Below are positions 14,057-59,695 of a DNA stretch of 64,000 bases, piece after piece. Positions within the stretch are counted from its first letter, which is position 1. Every line of letters begins with the position of its first letter. The position numbers were made by a program, and so were the translations under genes. Source of the DNA: Geodermatophilus obscurus (lineage in GTDB: Bacteria > Actinomycetota > Actinomycetes > Mycobacteriales > Geodermatophilaceae); NCBI RefSeq assembly GCF_900143215.1, contig NZ_FRDM01000007.1:62001-126000 (forward strand), in the 5' to 3' direction. The notes beneath the pieces were generated by a model. The model saw only the letters and a program-made list of their open reading frames with translations, searched no databases and had not been told where the DNA came from.

Positions 14057-14136
14057 CCCGGTGACGGACCGGAACGGCCGCCCTCCAGGGGCCCGCGCCT
14101 GAGCTCGCGAGGCGTGGGGAGGAGGGTGGTCCTCCT
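14057..14136 (-). repeat. GAAGGACC-family 3'-end palindromic element 1
   Basis: Directly follows the stop of the leftward tetratricopeptide gene and points the same way. Read leftward it starts AGGAGGACCACCCTCC and ends GGCCGTTCCGGTCCGTCACC. The arms CACCCTCC and GGAGGGCGG can pair around a CGCCTCGCGAGC core. It is the closest relative of the element at 25182-25260, sharing both the ACCACCCT head and the GTTCC-x-GTCACC tail. Confidence 0.7.
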
Positions 14137-14994
14137 TCAGCCGCCGAGGTCGCGCAGCGCCCGCTGGGCGAGGTCGTCGCCGCCGGCCGCACCGAGCCGG
14201 AAGTGCTCGACGGCGCCGTCGAGGTCGCCGCGGTCGGCCAGCAGCACGGCGAGGTTGTGGTGGCAGTAGCCGTCGCCGGCGGCGATGCCGGCGCGGTAGG
14301 CCTCTTCGGCCGCCTCCACGTCGTCGAGGTCCTCGACGTAGAAGTTGCCCAGCGGCAGCCACGCCTGGACCTCGCCGAGCTTCGCGCCGCGCTCGAGGGT
14401 GAAGCGGGCCTCCGCCGTCCGGCCGGTCGTGCGCAGCAGCGACGCCAGCGCCACGCGGGTGCCGGCGAAGCGGTCGGCCCCGGCGCGCAGGTCGACCTCC
14501 AGGGAGGTGTCGTGCGAGGCGGCCCACCGCCAGCAGGCGACCACCGCGGCGGCGACGTCGTTCCCCGTCGCGGCCAGGTCGGCCGCCACCGCGAGGGCCT
14601 GCTCGTGCTCGCCCTGCTCGTGCAGCAGGAACGCCAGTTGCAGCCCGCCCTGGGTGTCCCCGGCCGCGCCGGCACCGCGGTAGGCGCGCATCGCGCCGGC
14701 CAGGTCGCCGAGCTGCTCGAGCACCAGGCCGAGGTTGACCCAGGCGTCGCGCTCGCCGCCGGCCAGCGCCCGCTCGTAGGCGTCGACGGCCTCCTCGACC
14801 CGGCCGCGGGCGGCCAGCGAGTTGCCGAGGTTGAACCAGCCGAGCGAGTCCCCCAGCTCGGCGGCCCGGCGGAAGCAGCGCTCGGCGTCCAGGTCACGCC
14901 CGGCCTCGGCCAGGTCGCAACCCAGCTCGATGACGGCGTCGGCGTCCCGGCAGGCGCGCAGCCTCCGGAGGCGCCCGTCGAGGTCCTCCCGCAT
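14137..14994 (-). CDS. Tetratricopeptide/Sel1-like repeat protein
   Basis: 285-residue soluble helical-repeat protein, probably a protein-binding scaffold. Successive units read ERCFRRAAELGDSLGWFNLG, EAVDAYERALAGGERDAWVNLG, and so on to GAVEHFRLGAAGGDD, each about 34 residues with the A-x-x-x-Y/F-x-x-A pattern. No signal peptide or catalytic domain is seen. I prefer ATG 14994 (MREDLDGRLRRL) to GTG 15021; neither has a strong ribosome site. Function cannot be assigned from the neighbours. Confidence 0.82.
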   Translation of the reverse strand: MREDLDGRLRRLRACRDADAVIELGCDLAEAGRDLDAERCFRRAAELGDSLGWFNLGNSLAARGRVEEAVDAYERALAGGERDAWVNLGLVLEQLGDLAGAMRAYRGAGAAGDTQGGLQLAFLLHEQGEHEQALAVAADLAATGNDVAAAVVACWRWAASHDTSLEVDLRAGADRFAGTRVALASLLRTTGRTAEARFTLERGAKLGEVQAWLPLGNFYVEDLDDVEAAEEAYRAGIAAGDGYCHHNLAVLLADRGDLDGAVEHFRLGAAGGDDLAQRALRDLGG

Positions 14995-15107
14995 GCGGCG
15001 ATCATGCGGCGCACCCCGCACCCCGTCCTCCCCCGCTGGGGCGGTCTCACCCGTCGGAGGAGGTGCAGGTCACCCGGGGGGAGTCAGTCGTCCCCGCGGG
15101 CACGGAG

Positions 15108-15191
15108 GCGGCCCCGTCCAGAGGCTCGCCGCAGGCCTCGTCCCGGGTCCCACCCTGAGCCTGCGAAGGGTGGGGAGGACGGGGTCCTTCA
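15108..15191 (-). repeat. GAAGGACC-family 3'-end palindromic element 2
   Basis: Starts right beside the stop of the leftward ABC permease gene and points the same way. Read leftward: TGAAGGACCCCGTCCTCCCC, then a second loop GGGTGGGACCCGGGACGAGG, then GGCGAGCCTCTGGACGGGGC. It looks like the left end of one copy fused to the right end of another, as in the composite at 39575-39702. Outer arms GGACCCCGTCC and GGACGGGGCC pair. Confidence 0.72.
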
Positions 15192-16379
15192 TCAGGCCCG
15201 CTCGGCGCGCAGCGCCTCGCGCAGCCTGGTCTTCCCGCTCGTGCGCAGCAGGGCGCCGGAGTAGACCCGCCCGCCGAGGCGGACGGCGAGCCCGATGGCG
15301 ACCAGCATGAGGACGACGGCCAGCGCCACCTCCCAGCCCGCCGCCTCCCCGGCCGCCTGGCGCACCGGCATCACCAGCGGCGAGAGACCGGGCACGAGGG
15401 AGGTGACCCGCGCGAGCGTGCCGCCGGGCTCGCCGGCGGCCTGCAGCGCCACGAAGAAGCCGGCGACGAGCAGCAGCGACGCCGGCGTGAGCACGCTGCC
15501 GAGGTCCTCCTGCCGGCTGACCAGCGAGGCGGCCACCGCGAAGACGCACGCGTAGAAGGCGTAGCCCAGGACGAACCAGGCGACGACGACGGCCACGGTG
15601 CCGATCAGCTCCCCGGGGACGTCGACCAGGTCGAGGGCCAGCGCGCCGACGACCCCGACCACCCCGATGACGACGATCTGCCCGAGCCCCAGCAGGCCCA
15701 GGCCGAGGATCTTGCCGGCCAGCAGCTGCCAGGGCCGCATGGTGGCCAGCAGCAGTTCCACCACCCGGCTGGACTTCTCCTCCACCACGCCCTGGGCGAC
15801 GAACTGCGCGAACAGGATGAGCAGGCCGTAGAGCAGGACGACGCCGATGATCGCCACGACCACCTGCTGGCCGTCGTCCTCCTGATCGCCGATCGGGACG
15901 ACCGCCACCTCGGGCAGGGACCGCAGGTCGACGCCGGCCTCCAGCAGCCGATCGGAGACGGCCAGCCCGCTGACCGCGCCGCCGACGACCGCCTCCAGCG
16001 CGGGGTCCCGGTCCAGGACCACGAGCTCGGGAGCCGGGCCGGTGCCGTCGACCAGCGCCGCGTCGACCTCCTCGTCCTCGACCGCGGCCCGCGCGGCGGC
16101 CTCGTCGTCGGCCTCGACCACCTGCACGTCGACGCCGACGGACTCGCCCTGCGCCTCGAGCGCCGGCCCGAGCCGGCCGTCGTCGCCCACGACCGCGACC
16201 CGGCTGGGCTCGTCACCGCCGCTGACCACCACCTGGAAGGCCATCGTGCCGAGCAGCAGCACGAGGATGACGATCGAGCTGACGATGAAGTTCTTGTCCC
16301 GGATGCGGCTGGAGACCTCGCGTGCGGCGACCAGCCGGACCAGCGCGGCGCTGCCCGGGGTGCGGGGTCCGGACGCCAT
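15192..16379 (-). CDS. ABC transporter permease, NatB-like
   Basis: 395-residue membrane subunit of an ABC-2 type exporter. One helix lies at about residues 33-53, then a large extracytoplasmic domain of about 120 residues, then five or six helices (VVVAIIGVVLLYGLLILFAQ onward). VEEKSSRVVELLLATMRPWQLL is the conserved NatB/ABC-2 loop. The start ATG 16379 overlaps the ATPase stop (TGATG), so the subunits are co-translated. Relatives move sodium or drugs outward; the substrate here is unknown. Confidence 0.88.
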   Translation of the reverse strand: MASGPRTPGSAALVRLVAAREVSSRIRDKNFIVSSIVILVLLLGTMAFQVVVSGGDEPSRVAVVGDDGRLGPALEAQGESVGVDVQVVEADDEAAARAAVEDEEVDAALVDGTGPAPELVVLDRDPALEAVVGGAVSGLAVSDRLLEAGVDLRSLPEVAVVPIGDQEDDGQQVVVAIIGVVLLYGLLILFAQFVAQGVVEEKSSRVVELLLATMRPWQLLAGKILGLGLLGLGQIVVIGVVGVVGALALDLVDVPGELIGTVAVVVAWFVLGYAFYACVFAVAASLVSRQEDLGSVLTPASLLLVAGFFVALQAAGEPGGTLARVTSLVPGLSPLVMPVRQAAGEAAGWEVALAVVLMLVAIGLAVRLGGRVYSGALLRTSGKTRLREALRAERA

Positions 16380-17287
16380 CACGCGGCGACCTCCGCCGGC
16401 TCGGCGACGGCCTCGCGGAACAGTTCCACCAGGCTCGGCTCGCGCCAGGCGAAGTGGCCGACCCGGCCGGTGCGCAGCGCCGCGGCGAGCACGGCCTGGT
16501 CGTCGGCGCCCGGGGCGAGCTCCAGCAGGGTGTCACCGGCCCGCTCGGACACCACCCGCACGCCGGGCAGCGCGGCCGCCCAGCCCGGTGGCGCGTCGGG
16601 GACGACCACCCGCAGCAGCCGGCCGGGCTCGCGGCGGCGCAGCTCGGCGACCGGCCCGGTGGCGACCATGGCCCCGCGGGCGAGGATGCCGACGGCGTCG
16701 CAGAGCCGCTCGACCAGGTCGAGCTGGTGGCTGGAGAAGACGACCGGGACGCCGCCGCGCACCTGCTCGAGCAGCGCCTCGGCGAGCGCGTCGAGGCCCA
16801 CCGGGTCCAGCCCGGAGAACGGCTCGTCGAGGATGAGCACCTCCGGCCGGCTGACCAGGGCCGCGGCCAGCTGCACCCGCTGCTGGTTGCCCAGCGACAG
16901 CTTCTCCACCTGGTCGCGGCGGCGCTCCCCGAGACCGAGCCGGTCGGCCCAGTGCTCGGCGGCGCGGGCGGCTGCCGCGGCGTCCAGGCCGCGGAGCCGG
17001 GCGAAGTAGGTCAGCTGCTCGCCGACCCGCATCTTCGGGTAGAGACCGCGCTCCTCCGGCATGTAGCCGATCCGGCGGCGCAGCGCCTGGTCCAGCGGCC
17101 GGCCCTCCCAGCGCACCTCGCCGGCGTCGGCGCGGACCAGCCCCATGGCGATCCGCATCGTCGTCGTCTTGCCGGCCCCGTTGGAGCCGCAGAAGCCGAA
17201 CATCGAGCCCGGGGCGACGGCGAAGGAGACGCCGTCCAGCACCCGGTTGGCTCCGTAGCTCTTGTGCAACCCGTCGAACTCCAGCAC
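16379..17287 (-). CDS. ABC transporter ATP-binding protein, NatA-like
   Basis: 302-residue cytoplasmic ATPase that powers the permease encoded next to it. Walker A is GSNGAGKTTT at about 34-43, the signature is LSLGNQQR (the GNQQR form seen in NatA-type exporters), and Walker B is VLILDEPFSGLDP. The C-terminal 80 residues match the DUF4162 extension common in this group. It is the first gene of a two-gene operon. Upstream, 89 bases separate it from the divergent udgX gene. Confidence 0.92.
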   Translation of the reverse strand: MLEFDGLHKSYGANRVLDGVSFAVAPGSMFGFCGSNGAGKTTTMRIAMGLVRADAGEVRWEGRPLDQALRRRIGYMPEERGLYPKMRVGEQLTYFARLRGLDAAAAARAAEHWADRLGLGERRRDQVEKLSLGNQQRVQLAAALVSRPEVLILDEPFSGLDPVGLDALAEALLEQVRGGVPVVFSSHQLDLVERLCDAVGILARGAMVATGPVAELRRREPGRLLRVVVPDAPPGWAAALPGVRVVSERAGDTLLELAPGADDQAVLAAALRTGRVGHFAWREPSLVELFREAVAEPAEVAA

Positions 17288-17376
17288 GCGCTCTCCCCGC
17301 CACCCTCCGTTGCCTCCGGCAACCGTATCGGCCGCTTGCTGTCGCGCCGGGACGCCCGGTGGGGTGTCATCGGCGG

Positions 17377-18051: not shown

Positions 18052-18064
18052 GGGCGTGGGCCAC
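18031..18064 (+). terminator. Hairpin spanning the udgX stop codon
   Basis: Arms 18031-18045 (GTGGCCCACGCCCTC) and 18050-18064 pair perfectly over 15 bp with a 4-base loop GCCT. The TGA stop lies at the loop and right arm. There is no T run after it, as is common for high-GC terminators. It probably ends udgX transcription, and may also affect the last codons. Confidence 0.55.
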
Positions 18065-18305
18065 CGGTGCCGGCCGGGGGCGCTCATCCGACCGGGGGAA
18101 TCGTCCGCGCTGATCCCTCGAGCACGGCCCGGCCACCGCCCGCCAGCACGCCGCCGGCCGAGTGAGCGGGTGCGGTCGGCGACGCGCGACGACACGCCGG
18201 GCGCGACGACCGGAACCCCGCACTCGGCAGCTCGCGCCGACGGTGTCGATGGCCGGCCGGGCGGCCGAGCTGCGCGGATCCCGCCCACCAGGTAGGACGG
18301 GCGCC

Positions 18306-18749
18306 GTGGACCGCGTCCACACGGCCGAGGCAACGGCGTCCGGAGCCCGCACCGGGGAGGTGAGCTCCTCCGACGGCCGGCTGACGACGAGTCTGTCCCG
18401 CCCGGCGGAGATGGGCGGGGACGGCGGTCCGGGCACCAACCCCGAGCAGCTGTTCGCCGCCGGCTACGCCGCCTGCTTCCACAGCGCCATGCGCTTCGCG
18501 CTCCGGGACCTCGGGCTGACCCCGCAGGCGCTCGAGGGCTCCTCGGTCACGGCCGAGGTGCACTTCCTCCGCGCGGCCCCCGGCGACCTCGGTCTCGGCG
18601 TCGACCTCTGGGCGCGGCTGCCGCAGCTGGACGACGAGCAGGCCCGGCAGCTCGTGGAGAAGACGCACACCAGCGGCCCGTACTCGCGCGCCACGGCGGG
18701 CAACGTGGCGGTCGGGCTGCACGTCGTCCCGTCGTCCTCCGCCGCCTGA
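18306..18749 (+). CDS. Organic hydroperoxide resistance (Ohr)-like protein lacking the second cysteine
   Basis: 147-residue OsmC/Ohr-fold protein. Ohr enzymes reduce organic peroxides with two cysteines and lipoyl electron donors. Residues typical of Ohr are present: TNPEQLFAAGYAACFHSA with peroxidatic Cys 57 and Glu 47, and PYSRATAGNV near the end. In ordinary Ohr the latter is CPYS-x-AT; here Gly 124 takes the place of the resolving Cys, and Cys 57 is the only cysteine. GTG start at 18306. No MarR-type ohrR lies next to it. Confidence 0.88.
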   Translation: MDRVHTAEATASGARTGEVSSSDGRLTTSLSRPAEMGGDGGPGTNPEQLFAAGYAACFHSAMRFALRDLGLTPQALEGSSVTAEVHFLRAAPGDLGLGVDLWARLPQLDDEQARQLVEKTHTSGPYSRATAGNVAVGLHVVPSSSAA

Positions 18750-18812
18750 CCAAGGACCCCCTGCCCGCCACTGCAGGCGGCCTGCGGGGCCCGGGACGGG
18801 GCCGGCGGGCCC
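18750..18812 (+). repeat. GAAGGACC-family 3'-end element 3 (diverged)
   Basis: Begins one base after the Ohr-like gene's stop, same orientation: AAGGACCCCCTGCCCGCCAC, then CAGGCGGCCTGCGGGG and GGACGGGGCCGG. The head is clear and the tail is degenerate. It sits between convergent genes. Confidence 0.55.
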
Positions 18813-18833
18813 GAGCCGCGCGGGAACCACCTG

Positions 18834-20878: not shown

Positions 20879-23389
<2,511 letters not shown>

Positions 23390-23468
23390 AGAAGGACCCT
23401 CCTGCCCCCCGCCACTCGCAGGCTCGCGGCGGGACCCTGCAGGAGGGCCGCCGGAACGGGGGGTCACC
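23390..23468 (+). repeat. GAAGGACC-family 3'-end element 4 (cleanest A-type copy)
   Basis: Starts at the base after the serC stop, same orientation: AGAAGGACCCTCCTGCCCCC, core CCACTCGCAGGCTCGCGGCG, tail GGGACCCTGCAGGAGGGCCG. Outer arms GGACCCTCCTGC and GCAGGAGGGCC pair with one bulge, and CCCGCC pairs with GGCGGG inside. This copy defines the undisturbed A type that is split by insertions elsewhere. Confidence 0.78.
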
Positions 23469-24707: not shown

Positions 24708-25181
24708 ATGTCAGCCTCGGTGTCCATGCCCCTCGGCGGCGTGCAGGTCGGTTCCTTCGACAGCTACGAGCAGGCCCAGGCCGCCGTCGACTACCTCGCC
24801 GACCAGAAGTTCGCCGTCGAGAACGTCACGATCATCGGATCGGACCTGCGCCAGGTGGAGCGGGTCACCGGCCGGCTCACCTGGGGCCGGGTGCTCGCGG
24901 CCGGCGCAGCCGGCGGGGCCTGGTGGGGCCTGTTCGTCGGGCTGCTGCTCGGCATCTTCGCCGCCCGGCCCGGCGCCTGGATCGGTTCGATCCTCACCGG
25001 CCTGCTCATCGGTCTGCTGTTCGGCGCGCTGTTCGCCGCGATCGGCTACTCCGCCAGCCGGGGCCGGCGGGACTTCACGAGCACGAGCACCGTAGTCGCG
25101 GGCCGCTACGACCTCATGTGCAACCCCGCCCGCGCCGAGGAGGCCCGGGCTCACCTCGCCCGCTTCTCGCTGCGCGGCTGA
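24708..25181 (+). CDS. General stress protein-like membrane protein (GSP17M-like domain)
   Basis: 157-residue protein. The N-terminal soluble part GSFDSYEQAQAAVDYLADQKFAVENVTIIGSDL matches the general-stress 17M-like fold. Two or three glycine-rich membrane helices follow at about residues 63-115. A short C-terminal soluble part ends RYDLMCNPARAEEARAHLARF. Function unknown; relatives are often stress-induced. Start ATG 24708. Confidence 0.8.
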   Translation: MSASVSMPLGGVQVGSFDSYEQAQAAVDYLADQKFAVENVTIIGSDLRQVERVTGRLTWGRVLAAGAAGGAWWGLFVGLLLGIFAARPGAWIGSILTGLLIGLLFGALFAAIGYSASRGRRDFTSTSTVVAGRYDLMCNPARAEEARAHLARFSLRG

Positions 25182-25260
25182 GGAAGGACCACCCTTCCCC
25201 CCACGCCTCGCAGGCGCAGGCGGAGGGCCCCTGGAGGGTGGCCGTTCCAGTACGTCACCA
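25182..25260 (+). repeat. GAAGGACC-family 3'-end element 5
   Basis: Begins directly after the stop of the stress-protein gene: GGAAGGACCACCCTTCCCCC, then CACGCCTCGCAGGCGCAGG, and ends CTGGAGGGTGGCCGTTCC with GTACGTCACC after it. It shares head and tail with element 1 at 14057-14136, on the other strand. Confidence 0.72.
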
Positions 25261-31263: not shown

Positions 31264-31608
31264 GTGGCTTACGACCCTGAGCTCGCAGACCGTGTTCGCG
31301 ATGCTCTTCCCGATGAGAAGAACGTCCGCGAGGTGAAGATGTTCGGTGGCCTCGCGTTCATGGTCGATGAGAAGATGGTCGCCTGCGTCTCGGGCGGCGG
31401 TGGCGCCCTACTCGTGCGCGTGTCGCGCAGTCGCGATGCCGAGTACCTGGAGGTGGCCGGGGCCCGCCGGGCAGAGATGGGCAAGGGCCGGTCGATGGGC
31501 GAAGGTTGGATCACCATCGATGAGGCGGCGCTCACGGAAGACAGACATCTGCACTTCTGGATCGACGCCGTCCTGGAGTACAACGCCGAGAAGACAGCGA
31601 AGCGTTGA
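31264..31608 (+). CDS. TfoX N-terminal domain protein
   Basis: 114-residue protein made only of the TfoX N-terminal domain: VREVKMFGGLAFMVDEKMVAC near residues 21-41, then LLVRVSRSRDAEYL and the end FWIDAVLEYNAEKTAK. Full TfoX/Sxy proteins regulate competence; stand-alone N domains have no clear role. AGGAGGAG lies seven bases before GTG 31264. Its base composition is visibly less GC-rich than its neighbours and it directly follows a transposase remnant, so it was probably acquired. Confidence 0.85.
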   Translation: MAYDPELADRVRDALPDEKNVREVKMFGGLAFMVDEKMVACVSGGGGALLVRVSRSRDAEYLEVAGARRAEMGKGRSMGEGWITIDEAALTEDRHLHFWIDAVLEYNAEKTAKR

Positions 31609-31626: not shown

Positions 31627-31798
31627 ATAGAAGGACCCCGTCCTCCTCTCGAAGGGCCCCCTTGCCCCCACCACTTCCAGGCTCGCGCCAGGCCCCGTCC
31701 AGAGGCTCGCCGCGAGCGTGCGAGCGGTGAGGAGGACGGGGTCCTTCTGCCTGCACGGGGGCCGTCAGGGCTCGCGGCGAGCCTCTGACCGGGGCCGC
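31627..31798. repeat. Triple-nested GAAGGACC-family composite (element 6)
   Basis: Three elements nest. Outer B, rightward: left end 31629-31648 (AGAAGGACCCCGTCCTCCTC), right end about 31768-31797. Inside it, A, rightward: left end 31651-31687, right end about 31752-31764 (TGCACGGGGGCCG). Inside A, a complete B copy pointing left at 31692-31748. The left ends of the two B copies form a perfect 20-bp inverted repeat (31629-31648 with 31729-31748). The block lies between the convergent TfoX-domain and ThpR genes. Confidence 0.75.
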
Positions 31799-39574: not shown

Positions 39575-39702
39575 AGCCTGGTGACGCATGGGAACGGCCC
39601 CGTCCAGAGGCTCGCCGCAGGCCTCGTCCCGGATCCCACCCCGAGCCCGCGAAGGGTGGGGAGGACGAGGTCCTGCCACGGGGAGGAGGACGGGGTCCCT
39701 CC
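39575..39702 (-). repeat. Nested GAAGGACC-family composite (element 7)
   Basis: Directly follows the cold-shock gene stop, same orientation. Read leftward: outer B left end GGAGGGACCCCGTCCTCCTC; then a complete inner copy starting GGCAGGACCTCGTCCTCCCC and ending GGGATCCGGGACGAGGCC; then outer right end GCGGCGAGCCTCTGGACGGG and the tail GTTCCCATGCGTCACC shared with elements 1 and 5. Confidence 0.72.
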
Positions 39703-40098
39703 TCAGTGCTCCAGGTCGGTGGCGACCGCGCGCAGCACCGAGGCGACCTTGCGGGCCACCGGCCGGTCGGGGTGCCGGCCGTGCCGCAGCCCGTTGGACA
39801 CGTCGTCGAGCAGCTTGATCAGGTCCTCGATGATCGGGACCAGGTCGTCGGGCTTCTTGCGGGTCCGCTCCGCGTGCGCCGCCGTCACCGACGGCAGCGG
39901 GTCCAGCACCCGCACCTGCAGGGCCTGGTCGCCGCGGCGGCCGGCGACGATGCCGAACTCCACCCGCTGACCGGGCTTGAGCTCGCTGGTGCCGGACGGG
40001 AGGGCGTCCTTGTGCACGAAGACGTCCGGGCCGTCCTCACGCGAGAGGAAGCCGAACCCCTTCTCCGGGTTGAACCACTTGACTCTGCCGGTGGGCAC
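39703..40098 (-). CDS. Cold-shock domain protein with C-terminal extension
   Basis: 131-residue nucleic-acid chaperone. The N-terminal cold-shock domain (1-66) has RNP1 KGFGFLSRE and RNP2 [10 protein letters not shown] 65-residue helical extension follows ([20 protein letters not shown]), absent from the 67-residue Csp proteins but known in long actinobacterial members. It binds single-stranded RNA or DNA in the cytoplasm. GTG 40098 with GAGGGATCAAC before it. Confidence 0.92.
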
Positions 40099-42386: not shown

Positions 42387-42498
42387 CGGCCCCTCTGCAG
42401 GGCCCCGCCGCCGGCCCCGTCCAGAGGCTCGTCCCGAGTTCGCGAGGGATGAGGAGGACGGGGTCCTGCCACGGTGGGGGCAGAGGGGTCCTTCCACC
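42387..42498 (-). repeat. Nested GAAGGACC-family composite (element 8)
   Basis: Follows the acyl-CoA synthetase stop, same orientation. Read leftward: A left end GGAAGGACCCCTCTGCCCCC, then a complete B copy (42411-42470, starting GGCAGGACCCCGTCCTCCTC and ending CTCTGGACGGGGCCGG), then A right end GGGCCCTGCAGAGGGGCCGC. The A arms CCCCTCTGC and GCAGAGGGG pair across the insertion. Confidence 0.75.
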
Positions 42499-44154
42499 TC
42501 AGGCGTTGCGGACGGCGGCGGCGTCCTCGAGGCCGAGCTCCTTGACCGAGACCTCGCGCATCTCGATCTTGCGGATCTTGCCGGTGACCGTCATGGGGAA
42601 GGAGTCGACGACCTTCACGTAGCGCGGGACCTTGTAGTGGGCCAGCCTGCCGGCGCAGAACTCGCGCAGCGCCTCGGGCGTGAGCGGCCCGGCCCCCTCG
42701 CGCAGCCGCACCCAGGCCATGAGCTCCTCGCCGAAGCGCTCGTCGGGCACCCCGATGACCTGGGCGTCGACCACGTCGGGATGGGTGTAGAGGAACTCCT
42801 CGACCTCGCGCGGGTACACGTTCTCCCCGCCGCGGATGACCATGTCCTTGATGCGGCCGACGATGTTGAGGTAGCCCTCGGCGTCCATGACCGCGAGGTC
42901 GCCGGTGTGCATCCAGCGGGCGGCGTCGATGACCTCGGCGGTCTTCTCCGGCTCGTTCCAGTAGCCGAGCATCACCGAGTAGCCGCGGGTGCAGAACTCC
43001 CCCGGCGTCCCGCGGGGCACGGTCAGGCCGGTGGCCGGGTCGACGACCTTGACCTCCAGGTGCGGGTGCACCCGACCGACGGTGGCGGTGCGCCGGTCGA
43101 GGTCGTCGTCGGCACCGGTCTGGGTGGAGACCGGTGAGGTCTCGGTCATCCCGTAGCAGATGGTCACCTCGGCCATGCCCATCTCGGCGACCACCCGCTT
43201 CATCACCTCCACCGGGCACGGCGAGCCGGCCATGATGCCGGTGCGCAGGCTGGAGAGGTCGTAGGTGCCGAAGTCCGGCAGCGCCAGCTCGGCGATGAAC
43301 ATCGTGGGGACGCCGTACAGCGAGGTGCACCGCTCGTCCTGCACCGCCTGCAGCGTGGCTGCCGGGTCGAAGCCGGGCGCGGGGATGACCATCGTGGCGC
43401 CGTGGCTGGTGGCCGCGAGGTTGCCCATGCCCATGCCGAAGCAGTGGTAGTAGGGCACCGGGATGCAGATCCGGTCGGCGTCGGTGTAGCCGCAGCCCTC
43501 GCCCACGAAGAACCCGTTGTTGAGCAGGTTGTGGTGGGTGAGGGTGGCGCCCTTGGGGAAGCCGGTCGTCCCCGACGTGTACTGGATGTTGATCGGGTCG
43601 TCGGCCGACAGCTCGGCCGCGCGCCGGACCAGGAGTTCCCGGTCGCCCGCCCGCCCGGTGGTCAGCAGCTGCTCCCACGCGTCGTCCCCGAGGAACAGGA
43701 CCTCCCGCAGGTCGGGACACTCGCCGCGCACCTCGGCGACCATCGCCCGGTAGTCGCTGGTCTTGAACTCCGGCGCGCTGACCAGCACCGAGATGCCGGC
43801 CTGCTTCAGCACGTAGGCCAGCTCGTGGGTGCGGTAGGCCGGGTTGATGTTGACCAGGATCGCGCCGAGTCTCGCCGTCGCGTACTGCACGAACGCCCAC
43901 TCGGCGCAGTTGGGGGCCCAGATGCCGACCCGGTCGCCCTTGGCGACGCCCAGCGCGTCCAGCCCGAGGGCGACCGCGTCGACCTCGGCGACGAACTCCG
44001 GATAGCTGAAGCGGCGACCCGTCGCGCACTCCACCAGCGCCTCGTGGTCCCCCACCCGCGCCGCCGTCCGGTCCAGGTTGGCGCCGATCGTGTCCCCGAG
44101 GAGCGGGACGGTCGAGGTGCCACTGCTGTAGGACGGCAGCGCGGGCTGGGTCAT
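42499..44154 (-). CDS. Acyl-CoA synthetase (AMP-forming)
   Basis: 551-residue ligase activating a fatty or related acid with ATP and CoA. Motifs: ATP loop [18 protein letters not shown] at about 188-205, [50 protein letters not shown] and catalytic Lys in [13 protein letters not shown]. It resembles the FadD/AcsM medium-chain group; chain length cannot be read from sequence. CAGGAGGAAGAGC before ATG 44154 is a strong ribosome site. Confidence 0.93.
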
Positions 44155-44171: not shown

Positions 44172-44233
44172 TCGGCCCCCCTGCAGGGGCCCGCTGCGAG
44201 CTTGCGAGCTGCGGGGGGCAGGGGGTCCTTCTA
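44172..44233 (-). repeat. GAAGGACC-family 3'-end element 9 (A type)
   Basis: Begins directly at the second of two tandem TAG stops of the 71-residue gene. Read leftward: GAAGGACCCCCTGCCCCCCG, core CAGCTCGCAAGCTCGCAGC, tail GGGCCCCTGCAGGGGGGCCG. Outer arms CCCCCTGC and GCAGGGGG pair; CGCAGC and GCTGCG continue the stem within. Confidence 0.75.
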
Positions 44234-44449
44234 CTACTCGCCCGCCTGGACGCCGGCCCGGTTCGGCTTGTCGGTCGGGTGGGCGTACCGGAGGCGGTCG
44301 GACGGCAGCGGGAAGTCGTGGTCCTCACCGAAGGGCGACAGGGGGCCGGCCGACGCCGCGAGGAACTCCGTCACCGGCGCCCCGCCGTCGTCCGACTGGC
44401 CCCAGGTGGGCTCCACCAGGTGCTCGTGCTTGGCGTTCCGCTTGGCCAT
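44234..44449 (-). CDS. Small hypothetical protein (71 aa)
   Basis: Starts ATG 44449 after GGAGGGTACGGCGAC. The product [20 protein letters not shown] ... [20 protein letters not shown] is hydrophilic, without membrane segment or known domain. The stop is doubled (TAGTAG). It appears to belong to a small actinobacterial family of unknown role. An element of the GAAGGACC family follows at once. Confidence 0.7.
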
Positions 44450-45093: not shown

Positions 45094-45145
45094 GCTCCCA
45101 TGCTGGCAGGGGCGGCGACGGGGACGGCGACGTAACGTGGACCGG

Positions 45146-47404
45146 ATGTCCTCGCCAGCCCCCGCGACGCTCGCCTCCTGGCTGCGCACCCGCAGTGACG
45201 AGCAGCTCGCTGCGCTGCTGGCCGCCCGCCCCGACGTCGCCCGCCCCGCGCCCTCCGACGTCGTCGCCCTCGCCAGCCGGCTGGCCGTGCCGGTGTCGGT
45301 CGACCGCGCCCTCGACGAGCTGGACGCGGCCACGCTGCAGGTGCTCGACGTCGTGCTGCTCGCCGACACCGACGGGGTGGACGCCGCCGACCTGCCCGCC
45401 GCGCTGCCGGCGGTGCCCGACGACGTGCTCGAGGCCGCCGTCGACCGGCTCACCACGCGGGCGCTGCTGTGGGGGGACGACGTGCTGCACGCCCCCGAGC
45501 CGGTGCGCCGCGCCGTCCGGTACCCCGCGGGCCTGGGGCGCCGCGCGGTGGAGCTGCGGCTGGCCTTCCCGGCGGACCTGCCGGAGGCGCTGGGCGAGCT
45601 GCCGGCCGAGGAGCGCGACGTGCTGGAGCGGCTGGCCGGCGACCGCCCGGTGGGTCACCTGCCGGACACCGACGGGCCCGGTTCCTCCCCCGCCCGCCGG
45701 CTGCTGCAGCGCGGACTGCTGGCCCGCATCGACGCGCTCACCGTGGAGCTGCCCCGCGAGATCGGGGTGCAGCTGCGCGGCAGCCTGCCCTACGGCCCGC
45801 CCCGGCTGCGGCCGGAGCCGGTGGCCGTCGAGCGCGACCCGGCCGTCGTCGACCGGCAGGCCGCGGGTGCGGCGATGGAGGTGATCGGGCGGGTCGGCGA
45901 GCTGCTGGCCCTGCTCGAGGAGGAGCCGGCGGGGCTGCTGCGCAGCGGGGGCGTCGGCGTCCGCGACCAGAAACGGCTGGCCCGCGCGCTGAAGGTCGCC
46001 GAGCCCGACGCGGCCTGGCTGCTGGAGCTGGCGTACGCCGCCGGCCTGCTCGACGTCGGCGGCCCGCACCGCGACGAGTGGCTGCCCACGCGGGCCTTCG
46101 ACCTGTGGCGCGAGCAGGAGCTGCCCGACCGCTGGGCCACCCTCGCGGCGGGCTGGCTGGCCGCCGTCCGGCTGCCCTCGCTGGCCGGGCAGCGCGACGT
46201 CGCCGGCAAGGCGGTCAACGCCCTGTCCCCCGACCTGGTGCGGCACACCGCACCGGCGATCCGCCGCTCGGCCCTGACCGCGCTGGCCGAGTACCCGCCC
46301 GGCTGCGGCGTGCTCCCCGACGACCTGGTCGCGCTGCTGCGCTGGCGCACCCCGCGGCGCGCGGACCGGCTGGCCCCGGTGCCCGACCTGCTCGCGGAGG
46401 CCGCCCGGCTGGGGGCCGTCGTCGGCGGGGTGCTGTCGGCCGGCGGGCGCGGGCTGCTGGCCGCCGGTGAGGACGGCGCGGCCGATGGCATGCGCGGGCT
46501 GCTGCCCGACCCCGTCGACCACGTGCTGGCCCAGCCCGACCTGTCGCTGGTGGCGCCCGGCCCGCTGGTCGCCGAGCTCGCCGACACCCTCGCCGTCGTC
46601 GCCGACGTCGAGTCCTCGGGCGGGGCGACGGTCTTCCGGGTGTCGGAGTCCAGCGTGCGCCGCGCCCTGGACGCCGGCTGGTCGGCCACCGACCTGCACA
46701 ACTTCTTCGCGCGCGCCTCCCGGACGCCGGTGCCGCAGGCGCTGGACTACCTGGTCGAGGACGTGGCCCGCCAGCACGGCCGGCTGCGGGTCGGCGCCAT
46801 CGAGAGCTACGTGCGCTCCGACGACCACGGGCTGCTCTCCCAGGTGCTCAACGACCGGCGGACGGCGAGCGCCGAGCTGCGCCGCCTGGCACCCGGCGTC
46901 CTGGTCAGCGGGCTGGGCGCCGACGAGGTGCTCACCGTGCTGCGCGAGGCCGGCTACGCCCCGGCCGGCGAGTCCCCCGGCGGCGCCGTCCTCACCCGCC
47001 CGCCGGCCCGGCCGCGCGCCGCGGGCCGCCGTCCCGGGGGGGCCGCCCCGCAGGCGCCGCGGCCGCTCACCGGCGACGAGCTGGCGGCCACGGTGCGGGA
47101 GATCCGCGCCGGGGACGCCGCCCTGGCCGCCCGCCGCGGTGAGGCGGTGCGCCAGGTCCCCGGCGTGACGACTGCCGGCACGCTGGAGCTGCTGTCCCGC
47201 GCGGTCCGCGAGGGCGTGCCGGTGTGGCTGGGCTACGTGGACGCCCAGGGCAGCGGCAGCCAGCGCGTCGTCCGGCCGGTCTCGCTGGCCGGCGGCTTCC
47301 TGCAGGGGTACGACGAGCGCCGCGGGGAGAGCCGCACCTTCGCCGTCCACCGGATCACCTCGGTGGCCCTGGTGGAGGACGACGACCTGGCGCCGTCGTC
47401 CTGA
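45146..47404 (+). CDS. XPB-associated protein (helicase C-terminal domain 3 / WYL-like)
   Basis: 752-residue protein usually encoded beside actinobacterial XPB helicase. It is mostly helical; the middle (VLAQPDLSLVAPGPLVAELA, VFRVSESSVRRALDAGWSAT) matches the Helicase_C_3 family. The last 65 residues (LLSRAVREGVPVWLGYVDAQ ... RTFAVHRITSVALVEDD) look like a WYL-type ligand or nucleic-acid sensing fold. ATG 45146. Probably a partner or regulator of the helicase; proof is lacking. Confidence 0.85.
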   Translation: MSSPAPATLASWLRTRSDEQLAALLAARPDVARPAPSDVVALASRLAVPVSVDRALDELDAATLQVLDVVLLADTDGVDAADLPAALPAVPDDVLEAAVDRLTTRALLWGDDVLHAPEPVRRAVRYPAGLGRRAVELRLAFPADLPEALGELPAEERDVLERLAGDRPVGHLPDTDGPGSSPARRLLQRGLLARIDALTVELPREIGVQLRGSLPYGPPRLRPEPVAVERDPAVVDRQAAGAAMEVIGRVGELLALLEEEPAGLLRSGGVGVRDQKRLARALKVAEPDAAWLLELAYAAGLLDVGGPHRDEWLPTRAFDLWREQELPDRWATLAAGWLAAVRLPSLAGQRDVAGKAVNALSPDLVRHTAPAIRRSALTALAEYPPGCGVLPDDLVALLRWRTPRRADRLAPVPDLLAEAARLGAVVGGVLSAGGRGLLAAGEDGAADGMRGLLPDPVDHVLAQPDLSLVAPGPLVAELADTLAVVADVESSGGATVFRVSESSVRRALDAGWSATDLHNFFARASRTPVPQALDYLVEDVARQHGRLRVGAIESYVRSDDHGLLSQVLNDRRTASAELRRLAPGVLVSGLGADEVLTVLREAGYAPAGESPGGAVLTRPPARPRAAGRRPGGAAPQAPRPLTGDELAATVREIRAGDAALAARRGEAVRQVPGVTTAGTLELLSRAVREGVPVWLGYVDAQGSGSQRVVRPVSLAGGFLQGYDERRGESRTFAVHRITSVALVEDDDLAPSS

Positions 47405-47514
47405 AGAAGGACCCCCTGCCCCCCGCCACTCGTAGAAGGACCCCGTCCTCCTCACCGCTCGCAGGCTCGCGGCGAGCCTCTGGACGGGGCCGGCGGGACC
47501 CTGCAGGGGGCCGG
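47405..47514 (+). repeat. Nested GAAGGACC-family composite (element 10)
   Basis: Starts directly after the stop of the XPB-partner gene. A left end GAAGGACCCCCTGCCCCCCG with CCACTCG (to 47432), then a complete B copy at 47435-47492, then A right end GCGGGACCCTGCAGGGGGCC. Against the intact A copy at 23390, the inserted B replaces the A loop CAGGCTCGCG. The B copy differs at one of 57 bases from the inverted B copy at 31692-31748. Confidence 0.8.
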
Positions 47515-47548
47515 GGACAAGGGAAGGGGCCGCCCCTGCCTCGCCGCT

Positions 47549-47584
47549 CCACGGGAAGGACCTGTCGGTCCCCGTGGTTACCGT
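47549..47584 (+). promoter_or_regulatory. Hairpin and possible -10 box upstream of the XPB gene
   Basis: CCACGG (47549-47554) pairs with CCGTGG (47572-47577), and GGACC (47558-47562) with GGTCC (47567-47571). TACCGT at 47579-47584 fits a -10 box, 51 bases before the GTG start. A terminator of the preceding gene followed by the helicase promoter is the simplest reading. Confidence 0.35.
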
Positions 47585-47635
47585 GTCGGAGGCCCGCTGC
47601 GGCCACCGTCCCCCACCTCTTCCGAAAGGTCCCGC

Positions 47636-49321
47636 GTGTCTGACGGCCCCCTGATCGTCCAGTCGGACAAGACGCTGCTGCTCGAGGTCGACCACCCCGC
47701 CGCCCGCGACTGCCGCGCGGCGATCGCGCCGTTCGCGGAGCTGGAGCGCTCCCCCGAGCACGTGCACACCTACCGGGTGACGCCGTTGGCGCTGTGGAAC
47801 GCGCGGGCCGCCGGGCACGACGCCGAGCAGGTCGTCGACGCGCTGGTCCGCTACTCGCGCTATCCGGTGCCGCACGCGCTGCTGGTCGACATCGCCGACA
47901 CGATGGACCGCTTCGGCCGGCTGACGCTGGCCAACGACCCGGTGCACGGGCTGGTGCTCACCACCTCCGACCGCGCGGTGCTCGAGGAGGTCGTCCGCAG
48001 CAAGCGGGTGGCGCCGATGCTGGGCGCGCGGATCGACCAGGACACGATCGTCGTGCACCCGTCCGAACGCGGGCGGCTCAAGCAGGCGCTGCTCAAGGTC
48101 GGCTGGCCCGCCGAGGACCTGGCCGGCTACGTCGACGGCCAGGCCCACCCGATCGAGCTGGCCCAGGACGACTGGCACCTGCGCGACTACCAGCAGGAGG
48201 CCGTCGACGGCTTCTGGGCCGGCGGCTCGGGCGTCGTCGTCCTGCCCTGCGGGGCGGGCAAGACGCTGGTCGGCGCGGCGGCGATGGCCGAGGCGAAGGC
48301 GACCACGCTGATCCTGGTCACGAACACCGTCGCCGGGCGGCAGTGGAAGCGCGAGCTGATCGCGCGCACCTCGCTGACCGAGGAGGAGATCGGCGAGTAC
48401 TCGGGCGAGCGCAAGGAGATCCGCCCGGTCACCATCGCGACCTACCAGGTGATCACCACCCGCCGGAAGGGCGAGTACCGGCACCTGGACCTCTTCGACG
48501 CGCAGGACTGGGGGCTGATCGTCTACGACGAGGTCCACCTGCTCCCGGCGCCGATCTTCCGACTGACCGCCGACCTGCAGTCGCGGCGCCGGCTCGGGCT
48601 CACGGCCACGCTGGTCCGCGAGGACGGCCGCGAGGACGACGTGTTCTCGCTCATCGGGCCCAAGCGCTACGACGCCCCGTGGCGCGACATCGAGGCGCAG
48701 GGCTACATCGCCCCGGCCGAGTGCATCGAGGTCCGGGTCGCCCTGGACGACGAGGAGCGGATGACCTACGCGGTCGCCGAGCCCGAGGAGCGGTACCGGA
48801 TCGCGGCCACCGCGACCTCGAAGCTGCCGGTGATCCGCCGGGTGCTCGACCGGCACCCCGACGAGCAGAAGCTGGTGATCGGCGCCTACCTCGACCAGCT
48901 CGACGAGCTCGGCCGCGCCCTCGACGCCCCGGTCATCCAGGGGTCGACGACCAACCGGGAGCGGGAGAAGCTCTTCGACGCCTTCCGCGCCGGGGAGGTC
49001 AGGACGCTGGTGGTGTCCAAGGTCGCCAACTTCTCCATCGACCTGCCCGAGGCCGCGGTCGCCGTCCAGGTGTCGGGGACCTTCGGCTCGCGGCAGGAGG
49101 AGGCCCAGCGACTGGGCCGGGTGCTGCGTCCCAAGGCCGACGGCCGGCAGGCGCACTTCTACACCGTGGTCAGCCGCGACACCCTCGACGCCGAGTACGC
49201 CGCCCACCGGCAGCGCTTCCTGGCCGAGCAGGGCTACGCGTACACGATCGTGGACGCCGCCGACCTGGCCGGCCCCGGTGAGGTCGGCGGTCCCGGCTGG
49301 GTGGACGAGCCGGCGGACTGA
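47636..49321 (+). CDS. xpb: XPB/Rad25-family DNA helicase
   Basis: 561-residue superfamily 2 helicase, 3'-5' DNA unwinding, involved in repair. Walker A LPCGAGKTLVG, motif II YDEVHLLPAP (DEVH), motif III GLTATLVREDGRED, which also contains the XPB-specific RED motif, and motif VI QRLGRVLRPKADG. The N-terminal 170 residues form the damage-recognition-like region. GTG 47636. The pairing with the upstream gene matches what I recall of mycobacterial Rv0862c-Rv0861c. Confidence 0.94.
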   Translation: MSDGPLIVQSDKTLLLEVDHPAARDCRAAIAPFAELERSPEHVHTYRVTPLALWNARAAGHDAEQVVDALVRYSRYPVPHALLVDIADTMDRFGRLTLANDPVHGLVLTTSDRAVLEEVVRSKRVAPMLGARIDQDTIVVHPSERGRLKQALLKVGWPAEDLAGYVDGQAHPIELAQDDWHLRDYQQEAVDGFWAGGSGVVVLPCGAGKTLVGAAAMAEAKATTLILVTNTVAGRQWKRELIARTSLTEEEIGEYSGERKEIRPVTIATYQVITTRRKGEYRHLDLFDAQDWGLIVYDEVHLLPAPIFRLTADLQSRRRLGLTATLVREDGREDDVFSLIGPKRYDAPWRDIEAQGYIAPAECIEVRVALDDEERMTYAVAEPEERYRIAATATSKLPVIRRVLDRHPDEQKLVIGAYLDQLDELGRALDAPVIQGSTTNREREKLFDAFRAGEVRTLVVSKVANFSIDLPEAAVAVQVSGTFGSRQEEAQRLGRVLRPKADGRQAHFYTVVSRDTLDAEYAAHRQRFLAEQGYAYTIVDAADLAGPGEVGGPGWVDEPAD

Positions 49322-49380
49322 AGGAGCACCCCGTCCTCTCCCTGCGTGAGCTCGGGGCGGGACCCCGGACGGGCCGGCCG
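49322..49380 (+). repeat. GAAGGACC-family 3'-end element 11 (diverged)
   Basis: Directly after the XPB stop: AAGGAGCACCCCGTCCTCTC, then GTGAGCTCGGGGCGGGACC and CCGGACGGGCCGG. Arms CCCCGTCC and GGACGGG still pair. Weakest member of the set. Confidence 0.5.
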
Positions 49381-53781: not shown

Positions 53782-53840
53782 CGGTCGGCTGCAGGCAGGA
53801 CGCGGGCACGGTCACGCCCGGGGCGCGCGACCGAGAACCT

Positions 53841-53859: not shown

Positions 53860-53863
53860 CTTG

Positions 53864-56524: not shown

Positions 56525-56641
56525 CACCGCGGTCCGACCGCACCGCACCGCGGCCACGTGCCGTCCCCGACCTGCGCTGAGCTCCCTCGAGTCCTCGTCG
56601 CGGAGCCCCTCCGGGCCCCCGCTCCTCGGCCTCAGCACGAC

Positions 56642-59587
56642 CTATCCCGTCGGCAGCAGGCCCTTCGCGGCCGCGAGGGCCACCGCCTCGGTGCGCCCGC
56701 CCGCGCCGAGCTTGGCCAGGATCCGGCTGACGTGCACGCTCGCCGTCTTCTCGCTCATGTGGAGCTCCACGCCGATCTGCCGGTTGGTGCGGCCCTGGGC
56801 CAGCAGCCGCAGCACCTCGGCCTCCCGCGGCGTGAACACCGCAGCTGCCCCGGGCGCCCGGCCCACCCCCGGCACGTCCAGCCGCCCCCGCCGGGCCAGG
56901 GCCGTGACCGCCGCCCGCAGCGGTGCCGCACCGAGCCGGGTGGCGACCTCCGCGGCCGCCCGCAGTTCGCGCTCCGCAGCCGTCCGGTCGCCGGCGGCCA
57001 GCAGCGCCTCGGCCAGCCGCCGGCGCGACCGGGCCTGCTCGTAGACGTGCCCGTAGCCGAACGCGTCGCCCGCGGCCCGCCACAGCTCCGGTGCCGGGCG
57101 GCCGGTCAGCCGTGCTGCCTCGGCCTCGACCCGGGCCTGCCAGGCGACCGCCTCCACCCCGAACGGCCCGACGTCGCGCAGGTGGTCCTGCACCGCCGCG
57201 CGGGCCTGGGCGACGAGCTCCTCCCCCGCCTCGACCCAGCGTCGAGCGCCGGCGTCGTCGCCCTGCAGGCGGGCGGCCGCGGCGGCGTCGCCGACCGGGG
57301 CGAGCGCGGTCGCGACCAGCCGGAGGACGGCGAGCCGGTCGGCGTCCCAGTACGTCTGCACCTGCCGCACCGCTCCCCGCGCCCGCTCCACGGCGGTCCC
57401 GGCGTCCCCCGCCCAGGCGGCGAGGTCGATCTCCGCCCCGGCCGCCGCCAGCAGCAGCAGGACGTGCGCGTCCAACCGGTCGGTCAGCCCGCGCGCCCAG
57501 ACCACCCGCTCGGCGGCCGACGGGTCCCCGCGGCCGACCTGCACCAGCAGCCCGGCGGCGCCCACGTGCGCGGCCATCTCCGGCACGCGCGCCAGCCGGT
57601 CGGCCAGCTCCAGGCTGCCGTCCCAGTCCCCCGCGACGTAGCGGGCGGACACGCCCAGGTGGCGCAGTTCGGCGCCGTAGAACGACCACTCGACGCCGAG
57701 CTCGGCCGCCCGGGCGAGCGCGTCGGAGACCCAGCGCAGCGTGGCGGCGATGTCCCCGGCCTCGTACGGGACGACGGCGAGGTTGAACAGCACCCGCATC
57801 TCGACCTCGGTGTCGCCCGACCGCCGGGCCCGCACCAGGGCCTCCTCCAGCCGGCCGGGGAGGTCGCTGCCGCCGCGCATCCGGGCCAGCGAGACCGCGG
57901 TGTCGGCCCACGCGCTGTCCAGGCCGAGCGCGTCGGCGGCGGCCAGCGCCTCGTCGGCCGCCGCGTCGGCCTCCGCCCGGCGGCCCAGCGACCAGCTGGT
58001 GCGCGCGTGGGTGGCCGCGGCCCAGGTGCGCACCGGGGACGGCGGGTCGGCCGGCACCAGCGCCATCGCCCGGCTGCTCTCCCGGTGGGCCGCTGCCTGG
58101 TCCTCGATCCGGCTCAGCGCCTGGGCCAGCCGGTAGTGCACCCGCGCGCGCTCGACCGGGTCGCCGTCCGGGCCGAGCAGGTCCAGCGCGGCGCGGATCA
58201 GCGCCACCGCCCGCTGCGGCTCCCCCGCGGTGCGGGCGGCGGCCGCGCTGTCGAGCAGCAGCGCCGGCTGGTCGCGTCCCGCGCGGGCGGCCGCGTCGGG
58301 CACCGCCGGCCACAGCGCCAGCGCCGCCTCCAGGTGCTGCAGCTGCTCGGCGGGCGCGCCGGCCCGGCACGCCTCGGCCGCCGCCTCCAGCGACGCGGAG
58401 AACGCCCCGGCGAGGTCGTTGCTGCCGCGGGCGTGGTGCGCCAGCTCCGCGGCGGTGCCGGCGCCGGGGTTCGCAGCGAGGTAGGCGGCCGTCGTGGCGT
58501 GCAGTCGCACCCGCTCGCCGGGCAGCAGGTCGGCGAGAACGGCCTCGCGCAGCAGGGCGTGCCGGAACCGGTAGCGGCCGTCGTCGGAGACCACGAGCAG
58601 GTGGTGGTGCACCGCCTCGGCCAGCGCGGCGTCCAGCTCGGCCGGGAGCGGACCGCTGACCGCGGCGACCAGGTCGTGCCGCACCTGCCGGCCCGCGACC
58701 GCGGCCACCCGCAGCACCTGCTGGGCCGCCTCCCCGAGCTGCTCGACCCGCGCCAGCAGCACGTCGGTCAGCCCCATCGGCAGCGTCTCCCCGGCGAGGC
58801 CCGCCGCGAGCAGCTCCTCGGCGTAGAAGGCGTTCCCCTCGGCGCGGGCGACGACGTCCTCGACCGTCCGGTCGGGCACGCCCGAGGCCAGGCCGCGCAC
58901 CAGCTCGCCCACAGCGGCGTCCGGGAGCGGCGCCAGCTCCAGCCGCTCGACCAGGGGCAGCCGCACCAGCTCGGCCAGCAGCGGGCGCAGCGGGTGGCGG
59001 CGGTGCAGGTCGTCGGAGCGGTAGGAGGCCACGAGGGCGACCGGCTCCTCGGCCAGCCGGGCGAGCAGGTAGCGCAGCAGGTCGCGGCTGGAGCGGTCGG
59101 CCCAGTGCACGTCCTCGAGGACGACGAGCAGCGGGGTCTGCGCGGCCAGCTCGCCCAGCAGCGCCGCCACCGACTCGAACAGCTGCAGCCGCCCGCCGTC
59201 GGCGACCGGACGGCGGACCAGCGGGCGGCCGAGGTCGGCGGCGTCCCCCGCCGGCAGCTCGGGGACGGCCGGGGTGCTCCGCGCGGACAGCAGCGCCGGC
59301 AGCCCAGGGTGCCCCGACCCCGGGGCCACCGCGCGGAGCAGGTCGACGAAGGGCAGGTAGGGCAGCCCGACGTCGCCGAGGTCGACGCAGTGCCCGGTCA
59401 GGACGCGCAGGCCGCGCTCGGCGGCACCGACGGCCAGCTCGTCCAGCAGCCGGGTCTTGCCGACGCCGGCGTCACCGGCGACGAGCACCGCGGAGGGGTG
59501 CCCCTCCAGGGCACGGTCGACCACGGCGAGCAGCCGGGCGAGCTCGGCCTCCCGGCCCACCAGCGGTCGGTCGTCCCACTGCGGCAC
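56642..59587 (-). CDS. Large LuxR-family regulator with AAA ATPase (LAL type)
   Basis: 981-residue signalling regulator. The N-terminal AAA-type domain opens PLVGREAELARLLAVVDRAL, with Walker A VAGDAGVGKTRLLDE at about 36-50 and Walker B LLVVLEDVHWADRSS. A long TPR-like helical region follows, then a C-terminal LuxR helix-turn-helix FTPREAEVLRLLAQGRTNRQ and MSEKTASVHVSRILAKLG. GTG 59587. Inducer and target genes unknown. A second regulator of similar plan is at 50253. Confidence 0.9.
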   Translation of the reverse strand: MPQWDDRPLVGREAELARLLAVVDRALEGHPSAVLVAGDAGVGKTRLLDELAVGAAERGLRVLTGHCVDLGDVGLPYLPFVDLLRAVAPGSGHPGLPALLSARSTPAVPELPAGDAADLGRPLVRRPVADGGRLQLFESVAALLGELAAQTPLLVVLEDVHWADRSSRDLLRYLLARLAEEPVALVASYRSDDLHRRHPLRPLLAELVRLPLVERLELAPLPDAAVGELVRGLASGVPDRTVEDVVARAEGNAFYAEELLAAGLAGETLPMGLTDVLLARVEQLGEAAQQVLRVAAVAGRQVRHDLVAAVSGPLPAELDAALAEAVHHHLLVVSDDGRYRFRHALLREAVLADLLPGERVRLHATTAAYLAANPGAGTAAELAHHARGSNDLAGAFSASLEAAAEACRAGAPAEQLQHLEAALALWPAVPDAAARAGRDQPALLLDSAAAARTAGEPQRAVALIRAALDLLGPDGDPVERARVHYRLAQALSRIEDQAAAHRESSRAMALVPADPPSPVRTWAAATHARTSWSLGRRAEADAAADEALAAADALGLDSAWADTAVSLARMRGGSDLPGRLEEALVRARRSGDTEVEMRVLFNLAVVPYEAGDIAATLRWVSDALARAAELGVEWSFYGAELRHLGVSARYVAGDWDGSLELADRLARVPEMAAHVGAAGLLVQVGRGDPSAAERVVWARGLTDRLDAHVLLLLAAAGAEIDLAAWAGDAGTAVERARGAVRQVQTYWDADRLAVLRLVATALAPVGDAAAAARLQGDDAGARRWVEAGEELVAQARAAVQDHLRDVGPFGVEAVAWQARVEAEAARLTGRPAPELWRAAGDAFGYGHVYEQARSRRRLAEALLAAGDRTAAERELRAAAEVATRLGAAPLRAAVTALARRGRLDVPGVGRAPGAAAVFTPREAEVLRLLAQGRTNRQIGVELHMSEKTASVHVSRILAKLGAGGRTEAVALAAAKGLLPTG

Positions 59588-59636
59588 GGCGCCGATCGTG
59601 GCATGGTCCGCCGACGGGACCGGTGCGACCCGGGCG

Positions 59637-59695
59637 GCCCCCCTGCAGGGGCCCACCGCGAGCCTGCGAGCGGTGGGGGGCAGGGGGGTCCTTCT
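59637..59695 (-). repeat. GAAGGACC-family 3'-end element 12 (A type)
   Basis: Directly after the stop of the 42-residue gene, same orientation. Read leftward: AGAAGGACCCCCCTGCCCCC, core CCACCGCTCGCAGGCTCGCG, tail GTGGGCCCCTGCAGGGGGGC. Arms CCCCCCTGC/GCAGGGGGG and CCCACCGC/GCGGTGGG make one long stem. Confidence 0.78.

Follow-up and report, generated by a model that had tools for sequence, protein, structure and literature searches.

The window analysed here, 64,000 nucleotides of a Geodermatophilus obscurus contig (NZ_FRDM01000007.1), has a GC content of about 76% and belongs to a genome of 5,238,583 bases in 112 contigs. Twelve loci in the window carry a short hairpin-forming DNA repeat, and we found that this repeat recurs behind gene ends in Geodermatophilus and in the family Geodermatophilaceae. 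An earlier note on this DNA had pointed to the twelve loci, and on reading the sequence we found each of them in its place. Two covariance models, R1 and R2, were built and detected a unit at 12 of 12 loci; the best E-value was 5e-10 or lower at ten of these, and the two weak loci are 18752 (+; E 0.016) and 49321 (+; E 0.04 and 9.5e-4). Genes were called with a custom codon-model gene finder together with lists of open reading frames (ORFs); the gene finder overlooked at least two small ORFs (59696-59887 and 31264-31608). The elements are listed below, with the position of the hairpin foot given relative to the stop codon (+4, for example, is 4 nt).

14076..14134 (-): type C unit at +4 of the TGA of gene 14137-14994 (-); R1 E 1.2e-11, R2 E 8.9e-10
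15110..15189 (-): apparent collapsed composite of one 5' half and two 3' halves, at +4 of gene 15192-16379 (-); unit 15134-15189 R2 E 1.3e-14, additional 3' half (T)GCGGCGAGCCTCTGGACGGGGCC
18752..18803 (+): degenerate unit at +4 of gene 18306-18749 (+); R2 E 0.016
23392..23449 (+): type A unit at +4 of gene 22277-23389 (+); R1 E 1.2e-15
25184..25243 (+): type C unit, then a GTTCCAG tail, at +4 of gene 24708-25181 (+); R1 E 4.6e-10
31633..31796 (+): triple nest, 24 nt past ORF 31264-31608 (+); outer B unit, middle A unit (about 31654-31763) and inner, reversed B unit (31691-31746, -; R2 E 2.2e-16)
39596..39698 (-): B unit (39620-39675) inside a B unit, at +4 of gene 39703-40098 (-); inner unit R2 E 1.4e-13
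42388..42491 (-): B unit (42413-42468) inside an A-like unit, at +7 of gene 42499-44154 (-); inner unit R2 E 5e-15
44174..44230 (-): type A unit at +5 of gene 44234-44449 (-), with the next co-directional gene beginning shortly beyond; R1 E 3.2e-13
47409..47512 (+): B unit (47436-47491) in the loop of an A unit, at +4 of gene 45137-47404 (+); inner unit R2 E 1.4e-16
49324..49378 (+): degenerate B unit with the foot GCACC instead of GGACC, at +4 of gene 47636-49321 (+); R2 E 9.5e-4, R1 E 0.04
59636..59693 (-): type A unit at +4 of small ORF 59696-59887 (-); R1 E 3.3e-16

The elements had been described as starting at or near the stop codon of a gene on the same strand, and this was borne out: the foot lies at exactly +4 in nine of the twelve loci (gene ends 14137-, 15192-, 18749+, 23389+, 25181+, 39703-, 47404+, 49321+ and 59696-), at +5 behind 44234- and at +7 behind 42499-. 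The locus at 31627, described as set off from its stop and as carrying inverted copies, does have its foot at +24 past 31608+ and contains a reversed inner unit. The ORF at 59696-59887 (-) encodes 63 aa, and a relative appears to have it too; the 59637 element stands behind the TGA of this ORF. Two adjacent helicase-like genes (Helicase_C_3/WYL and XPB-like) occupy 45137-49321 (+), with the 47405 composite between them.

Most copies are 54-58 nt long. The unit opens with a leader, mostly N-R-R-A after TGA, and continues through GG, an A that bulges out and the 8-9 nt arm; past an internal loop the inner stem is capped by the loop TCGCAGGCTC, and the returning arm and CC close the unit. Two stacked stems are formed, an outer one made of the 8-9 bp arm and GG:CC with the bulged A, and a second, inner one past the internal loop. 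Arm types A and B, which the earlier note had taken as the two main types, are both present; they are not the sole types, and the further arms CCACCCTTCC, CCCTCCTGC, CCCCTCTGC and CCCCGCTGC occur beside them. Both-side changes were found in 52 cells among 25 type A units (12.7 when shuffled) and in 56 cells among 39 type B units, 35 of them distinct (14.0 when shuffled), although covariation of the outer helix is partly built into these counts because the hairpin scan demanded outer-arm pairing. The inner stem alone is therefore the unbiased test, and there 83% and 85% of cells are paired in the type A and type B sets, respectively, with compensatory changes present. Further pair types in the stems were no more numerous than in shuffles, of which 122 and 55 of 500 reach the observed number. 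Predicted minimum free energies (MFE) of three single units range from -33 to -38 kcal/mol, and hairpin z-scores against shuffled sequences are modest, at -1.6 to -2.6.

A 14-mer derived from the arms occurs 94+67 times in the 5.24 Mb genome versus 1+0 times for the reversed pattern, and the family is therefore not a product of chance. Across 26 genomes of the same genus the 14-mer matches range from 4 to 259, a range that reflects some arm types only, and the 14-mer is nearly missing outside the family, with 0-3 matches in each of 60 genomes from other families of the order. The R2 model found a match in 48 of 57 family genomes and in 9 of 12 genera, several genomes being incomplete among the genera without a match; this survey scored 99 candidate regions per genome and speaks to the presence of a match, not to total copy numbers. 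A search of the 64-kb window against Rfam at the gathering threshold matched no known RNA family.

The position of units within the own genome was surveyed in 997 kb, comprising a complete contig and portions of three others, where the two models gave 120 units at E <=0.05. The upstream gene lay on the same strand for 94 units and on the opposite strand for 23, and 3 units fell inside predicted genes. Exactly 4 nt separated stop and hairpin in 38 of the 94 same-strand units; 57 lay within 13 nt, and 18 at 25-38 nt, where those inspected were mostly inner units of nests. When four relatives were added, to make five species, a hairpin stood within 13 nt of the stop at 101 of 1416 gene ends. The register depended on the stop codon: elements behind TGA (n=84) lay at offsets 3, 4, 5 and 6 in 2, 59, 4 and 2 cases, and those behind TAG (n=16) lay at +2 in nine cases and at +5 in five. 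Requiring the core motif as well left +4 in 54 of 75 TGA elements and +2 in 8 of 14 TAG elements. An element was found at +4 of 59/1232 stop TGAs, of 4/18,664 TGAs in coding sequence and of 3/5436 intergenic non-stop TGAs, and two of these last three were the stop of the overlooked 63-aa ORF and that of its apparent ortholog. The tests on 85 elements reported below cover offsets 1, 2, 4 and 5 and leave out the remaining 16 of 101. A second conserved stretch, approximately GTTCCAGnACGTCACC, directly follows the hairpin (past 25243 and at related loci) in 20 of the 85 stop-adjacent elements, as judged from its first bases.

Pattern counts in 81 whole genomes of the family were 1755 at +4, 795 at +3, a count that includes much coding background, and 358 at +5; the own genome contributed 72, 16 and 8, respectively. 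The +4 offset leads in 54 of the 81 genomes and does not lead in 27. In 80 named loci with 523 gene ends, from the family and two more distant metagenome-assembled genomes (MAGs), we found 11 hits, of which four lay at TGA+4, in species outside the five surveyed, and an element at 1/659 intergenic non-stop TGAs. The strict same-strand placement that had been asserted from twelve copies thus holds over 997 kb and in the lead of +4 across the family; random orientation, or copies inside genes and upstream of starts as often as downstream, was not seen.

Nested composites occupy four of the loci (31627, 39575, 42387 and 47405). At 47405 the loop of an A unit is replaced by a B unit, and at 39575 and 42387 units are nested via the linker CCGTGGCAGGACC. 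Copies of the 47405 composite, roughly 80-92% identical, are found at many sites in several genomes, which indicates either the spread of whole composites or their repeated formation at one and the same loop. The element at 15108 has the layout of 39575 minus the stretch between its two AGGACC repeats, with one 5' half and two 3' halves, and looks like a collapsed composite. Motifs of the 3' half occurred within 70 nt at 18 of 85 element ends versus 28 of 698 ends without an element, and at 8 of 398 further downstream; the 18 include some outer arms of nests and hence are not a pure count of scars. From the nests, the layout of 15108 and the half-element motifs, we infer a model in which a copy would insert into the loop of another, the composite would collapse and the newcomer would inherit the address.

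Turnover between species was followed at 147 gene ends for which one or more of the four relatives had an ortholog, after orthologs without a stop at the homologous position had been dropped (12/109 in G024, 12/104 in G015, 7/87 in G003 and 12/77 in G012). Occupied orthologous gene ends gave 43 shared species pairs versus a shuffled mean of 12.8, and 0 of 2000 shuffles reached 43; the 43 pairs derive from 19 gene ends in five species and are not independent, and we estimate that the 320 of 1416 ends without room for an element would lift the shuffled mean roughly 1.3-fold. The 8-nt arm was identical in 4 of the 43 shared pairs, and at least three of its eight positions differed in 26; the aligned regions between species have a mean identity of 87-92%. 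Presence and absence also vary behind the same stop between related species, and element-free orthologs can end at that same stop. The idea that the element supplies the stop was ruled out at the TGA sites compared, because orthologs without the element end at the same TGA; at TAG+2 sites such a supply is possible. In 41 filled/empty pairs the 3' junctions were not clean at this divergence, and no target-site duplication could be read. A different short palindrome, approximately GAGATCGSCGATCTC, is found repeatedly close to the 3' ends of some genes in G003, G012 and G015, three of the relatives, and is possibly a second repeat family. Elsewhere in the own genome, near position 131886 of contig C21 (G000), lies a near-perfect palindrome, TAGGAGGACCCCG...CGGGGTCCTCCTA, which two convergent genes may share.

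We searched for an enzyme that could move these elements. The RAYT transposase domain Y1_Tnp (PF01797) was found in 0 of 37 family genomes, the own genome included; in the order's other families the same search was positive in 3 of 24 genomes, and 5 of 14 controls were positive too. Mobilisation by a RAYT is therefore rejected, unless an unrecognised enzyme acts. A reverse transcriptase was rejected as well: RVT_1 had one match in the own genome and none in G014, G015 and G016, and as these genomes are rich in the 14-mer (259, 83 and 135 matches, respectively), no link was seen.

Several known repeat systems resemble this family in part. RAYT-linked REPs are treated in PMC2817692. GTAG-type REPs, as described in PMC3733652, bear a GTAG tag that stays unpaired; the TAG stop of flanking ORFs is often provided by the repeat, and some families are found inserted within other palindromes. 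A table there gives a single stem of 5-13 bp, and the phyla listed for GTAG repeats are Proteobacteria, Cyanobacteria, Chloroflexi and the PVC group, with 'Actinobacteria' absent from the text. The elements studied here are likewise short, high-copy intergenic palindromes. An unpaired GTRG tag stands beside the hairpin in 21 of 59 off-stop units, and at stops in 5 of 53 (counted on 112 of the 120 units, those starting NNGG; genome frequency 0.0086 per position). They differ in having two stacked stems over 54-58 nt rather than a single stem of 5-13 bp, in their fixed +4 distance behind TGA with the tag altered, in the lack of any Y1 transposase match in 37 family genomes and in their actinobacterial host. 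In E. coli, 446 of 4072 predicted REPs are described as lying within 15 nt of a stop, and ribosome stalling has been reported for REPs in this position (PMC12306157); both systems place a hairpin this close to the stop, but here the mode is one exact distance. The MIRU elements of mycobacteria are described as lying at starts (PMC12548453), whereas the units reported here are hairpins behind stops. The claim of the earlier note that such placement is unusual for REPs thus stands in part: stop-near E. coli REPs and stop-supplying GTAG REPs are on record (PMC12306157, PMC3733652), and a fixed register is absent from these accounts as far as their available text goes. In a mostly open-access literature we found no paper on this family and none that joins 'Geodermatophilus' with 'repetitive extragenic palindromic', and a genome paper on Geodermatophilaceae (PMC9686282) uses 'palindromic' for CRISPR alone. 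The fixed register, the nesting and the actinobacterial host are new to us.

The elements had also been called terminator-like, and we compared them with what a terminator would lead one to expect. No TTT was present in the 8 nt after the hairpin in any of the 85 elements, nor in any of 90 when the core motif was required, and the 85 carry at most three T in this stretch; in nests the partner taken may be the inner one, so that 'after the hairpin' may fall inside the composite. In a first count, 14 of 296 tight co-directional ends were occupied, and 7 of these 14 overlap the next gene, by chance or through miscalling; we therefore repeated the count on the 90 of 101 elements that have the core motif, treating overlapping ends as a separate class. 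Among ends more than 10 nt from the next gene, 39/440 convergent ends were occupied (8.9%), and occupancy at co-directional ends was 25/365 with more than 100 nt left, 17/225 with 31-100 nt and 6/62 with 30 nt or less (6.8-9.7%). Convergent ends thus showed no rise over the co-directional classes, all classes being defined by gene orientation and spacing; ends without room for an element were occupied in 0 of 320 cases. Ten tRNA genes in the 40 own loci scanned had no unit within 1.9 kb (the nearest is at 1.98 kb), which is too few to tell.

One copy stands between flgD and flgE, within a run of co-directional flagellar genes. This gap holds an element in 4 of 16 loci of the genus (own, G012, G008 and G013), and the arms CTTG/CAAG, CGTG/CACG and CTCG/CGAG show compensatory changes at two positions, with one further mismatch in G008. 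The remaining twelve loci have no such element, and flgD still appears to be terminated by a stop there. The compensatory changes imply that one copy or more has been retained for the sake of its structure, a result not expected if the elements were purely selfish. A strong terminator at this place would stop transcription before it reached flgE and the genes downstream, unless the gap contains a promoter for flgE. The element-free gap of G003 contains an unrelated perfect palindrome, GGCGGTTTCCGCGGAAACCGCC.

What is left of the terminator-like character is the GC-rich hairpin itself, and 0/90 TTT, the flat occupancy and the flgD-flgE copy weaken the terminator reading. We regard it as quite unlikely that the elements are terminators made of a hairpin without a U-tract, copied around the genome by conversion and selected at gene ends. 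Such terminators do share with our elements a strong GC-rich hairpin on the coding strand right behind the stop: in M. tuberculosis nearly 90% of terminator structures are reported to have no U trail or a mixed one, and in 13 genomes 58-66% of hairpin units lie within 20 bases of the stop (PMC8355165). Hairpins a few nt past stops would also fit uncoupled transcription of the B. subtilis kind, for which short stop-to-hairpin distances have been read as an indicator (PMC7858274). Such terminators differ from the family described here, which switches arms, also occurs within an apparent operon and has a putative terminator activity only. Moreover, selection for termination does not predict a distance of exactly +4, the hairpin z-scores are modest, and the tRNA result adds little weight against this reading.

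Nesting, apparent collapse and arm switching at the same gene end point instead to a REP-like mobile family, the movement of copies being inferred from comparison. The elements are, in our judgement, probably small non-autonomous REP-like mobile hairpins of the Geodermatophilaceae that are addressed to stop codons and act as a 3'-end barrier, not as an efficient transcription terminator. A founder copy would land directly behind a stop codon, and later copies would enter the apical loop of the resident copy. Loss between two AGGACC repeats would then delete the old 5' half, leaving the newcomer with the inherited address and the old 3' half as a scar. At the +4 distance the hairpin in the mRNA would stand approximately at the mRNA entry of a ribosome that has the stop codon in its A site. 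There, an mRNA hairpin would form a barrier that may protect the upstream message or slow termination, and that would mostly be tolerated and sometimes kept.

A different account of the register, which we hold to be unlikely, is that copies insert anywhere between genes and that selection, acting on the mRNA end or on the terminating ribosome, keeps those near stops. The reported stalling of ribosomes by stop-near E. coli REPs (PMC12306157), the compensatory arm changes between flgD and flgE and the excess sharing of occupied gene ends all favour it, but such selection would probably tolerate +3, +5 and +6, which together with +4 were counted 2, 4, 2 and 59 times, respectively, behind TGA, and the fast turnover of arms and of presence also speaks against it. 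The stop codon may instead be recognised in its translational context, with insertion via mRNA or coupled translation and with genuine stops and unpaired resident loops as targets, a proposal that we consider distinctly doubtful. Far less probable still is that the DNA word CTGA or TGA is the target and that stops are hit only as carriers of that word. The excess of C before TGA at element stops (52/59 versus 727/1173 others, p 2e-5) is in its favour, and MIRU elements have a DTGA target. A bare TGA is nevertheless strongly disfavoured as such a word by the near absence of elements at +4 of intergenic non-stop TGAs (3/5436, all TGAs pooled, two of them the overlooked stop and its apparent ortholog, versus 59/1232 at stops).

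REP-like repeats are common, but their placement is unsettled, as is their nature: parasite, terminator or brake on translation. The probable family of stop-addressed mobile hairpins in Geodermatophilaceae combines a fixed distance to the stop with gains, losses and arm swaps that can be read between species; placement thereby becomes separable from selection, and the question becomes testable.
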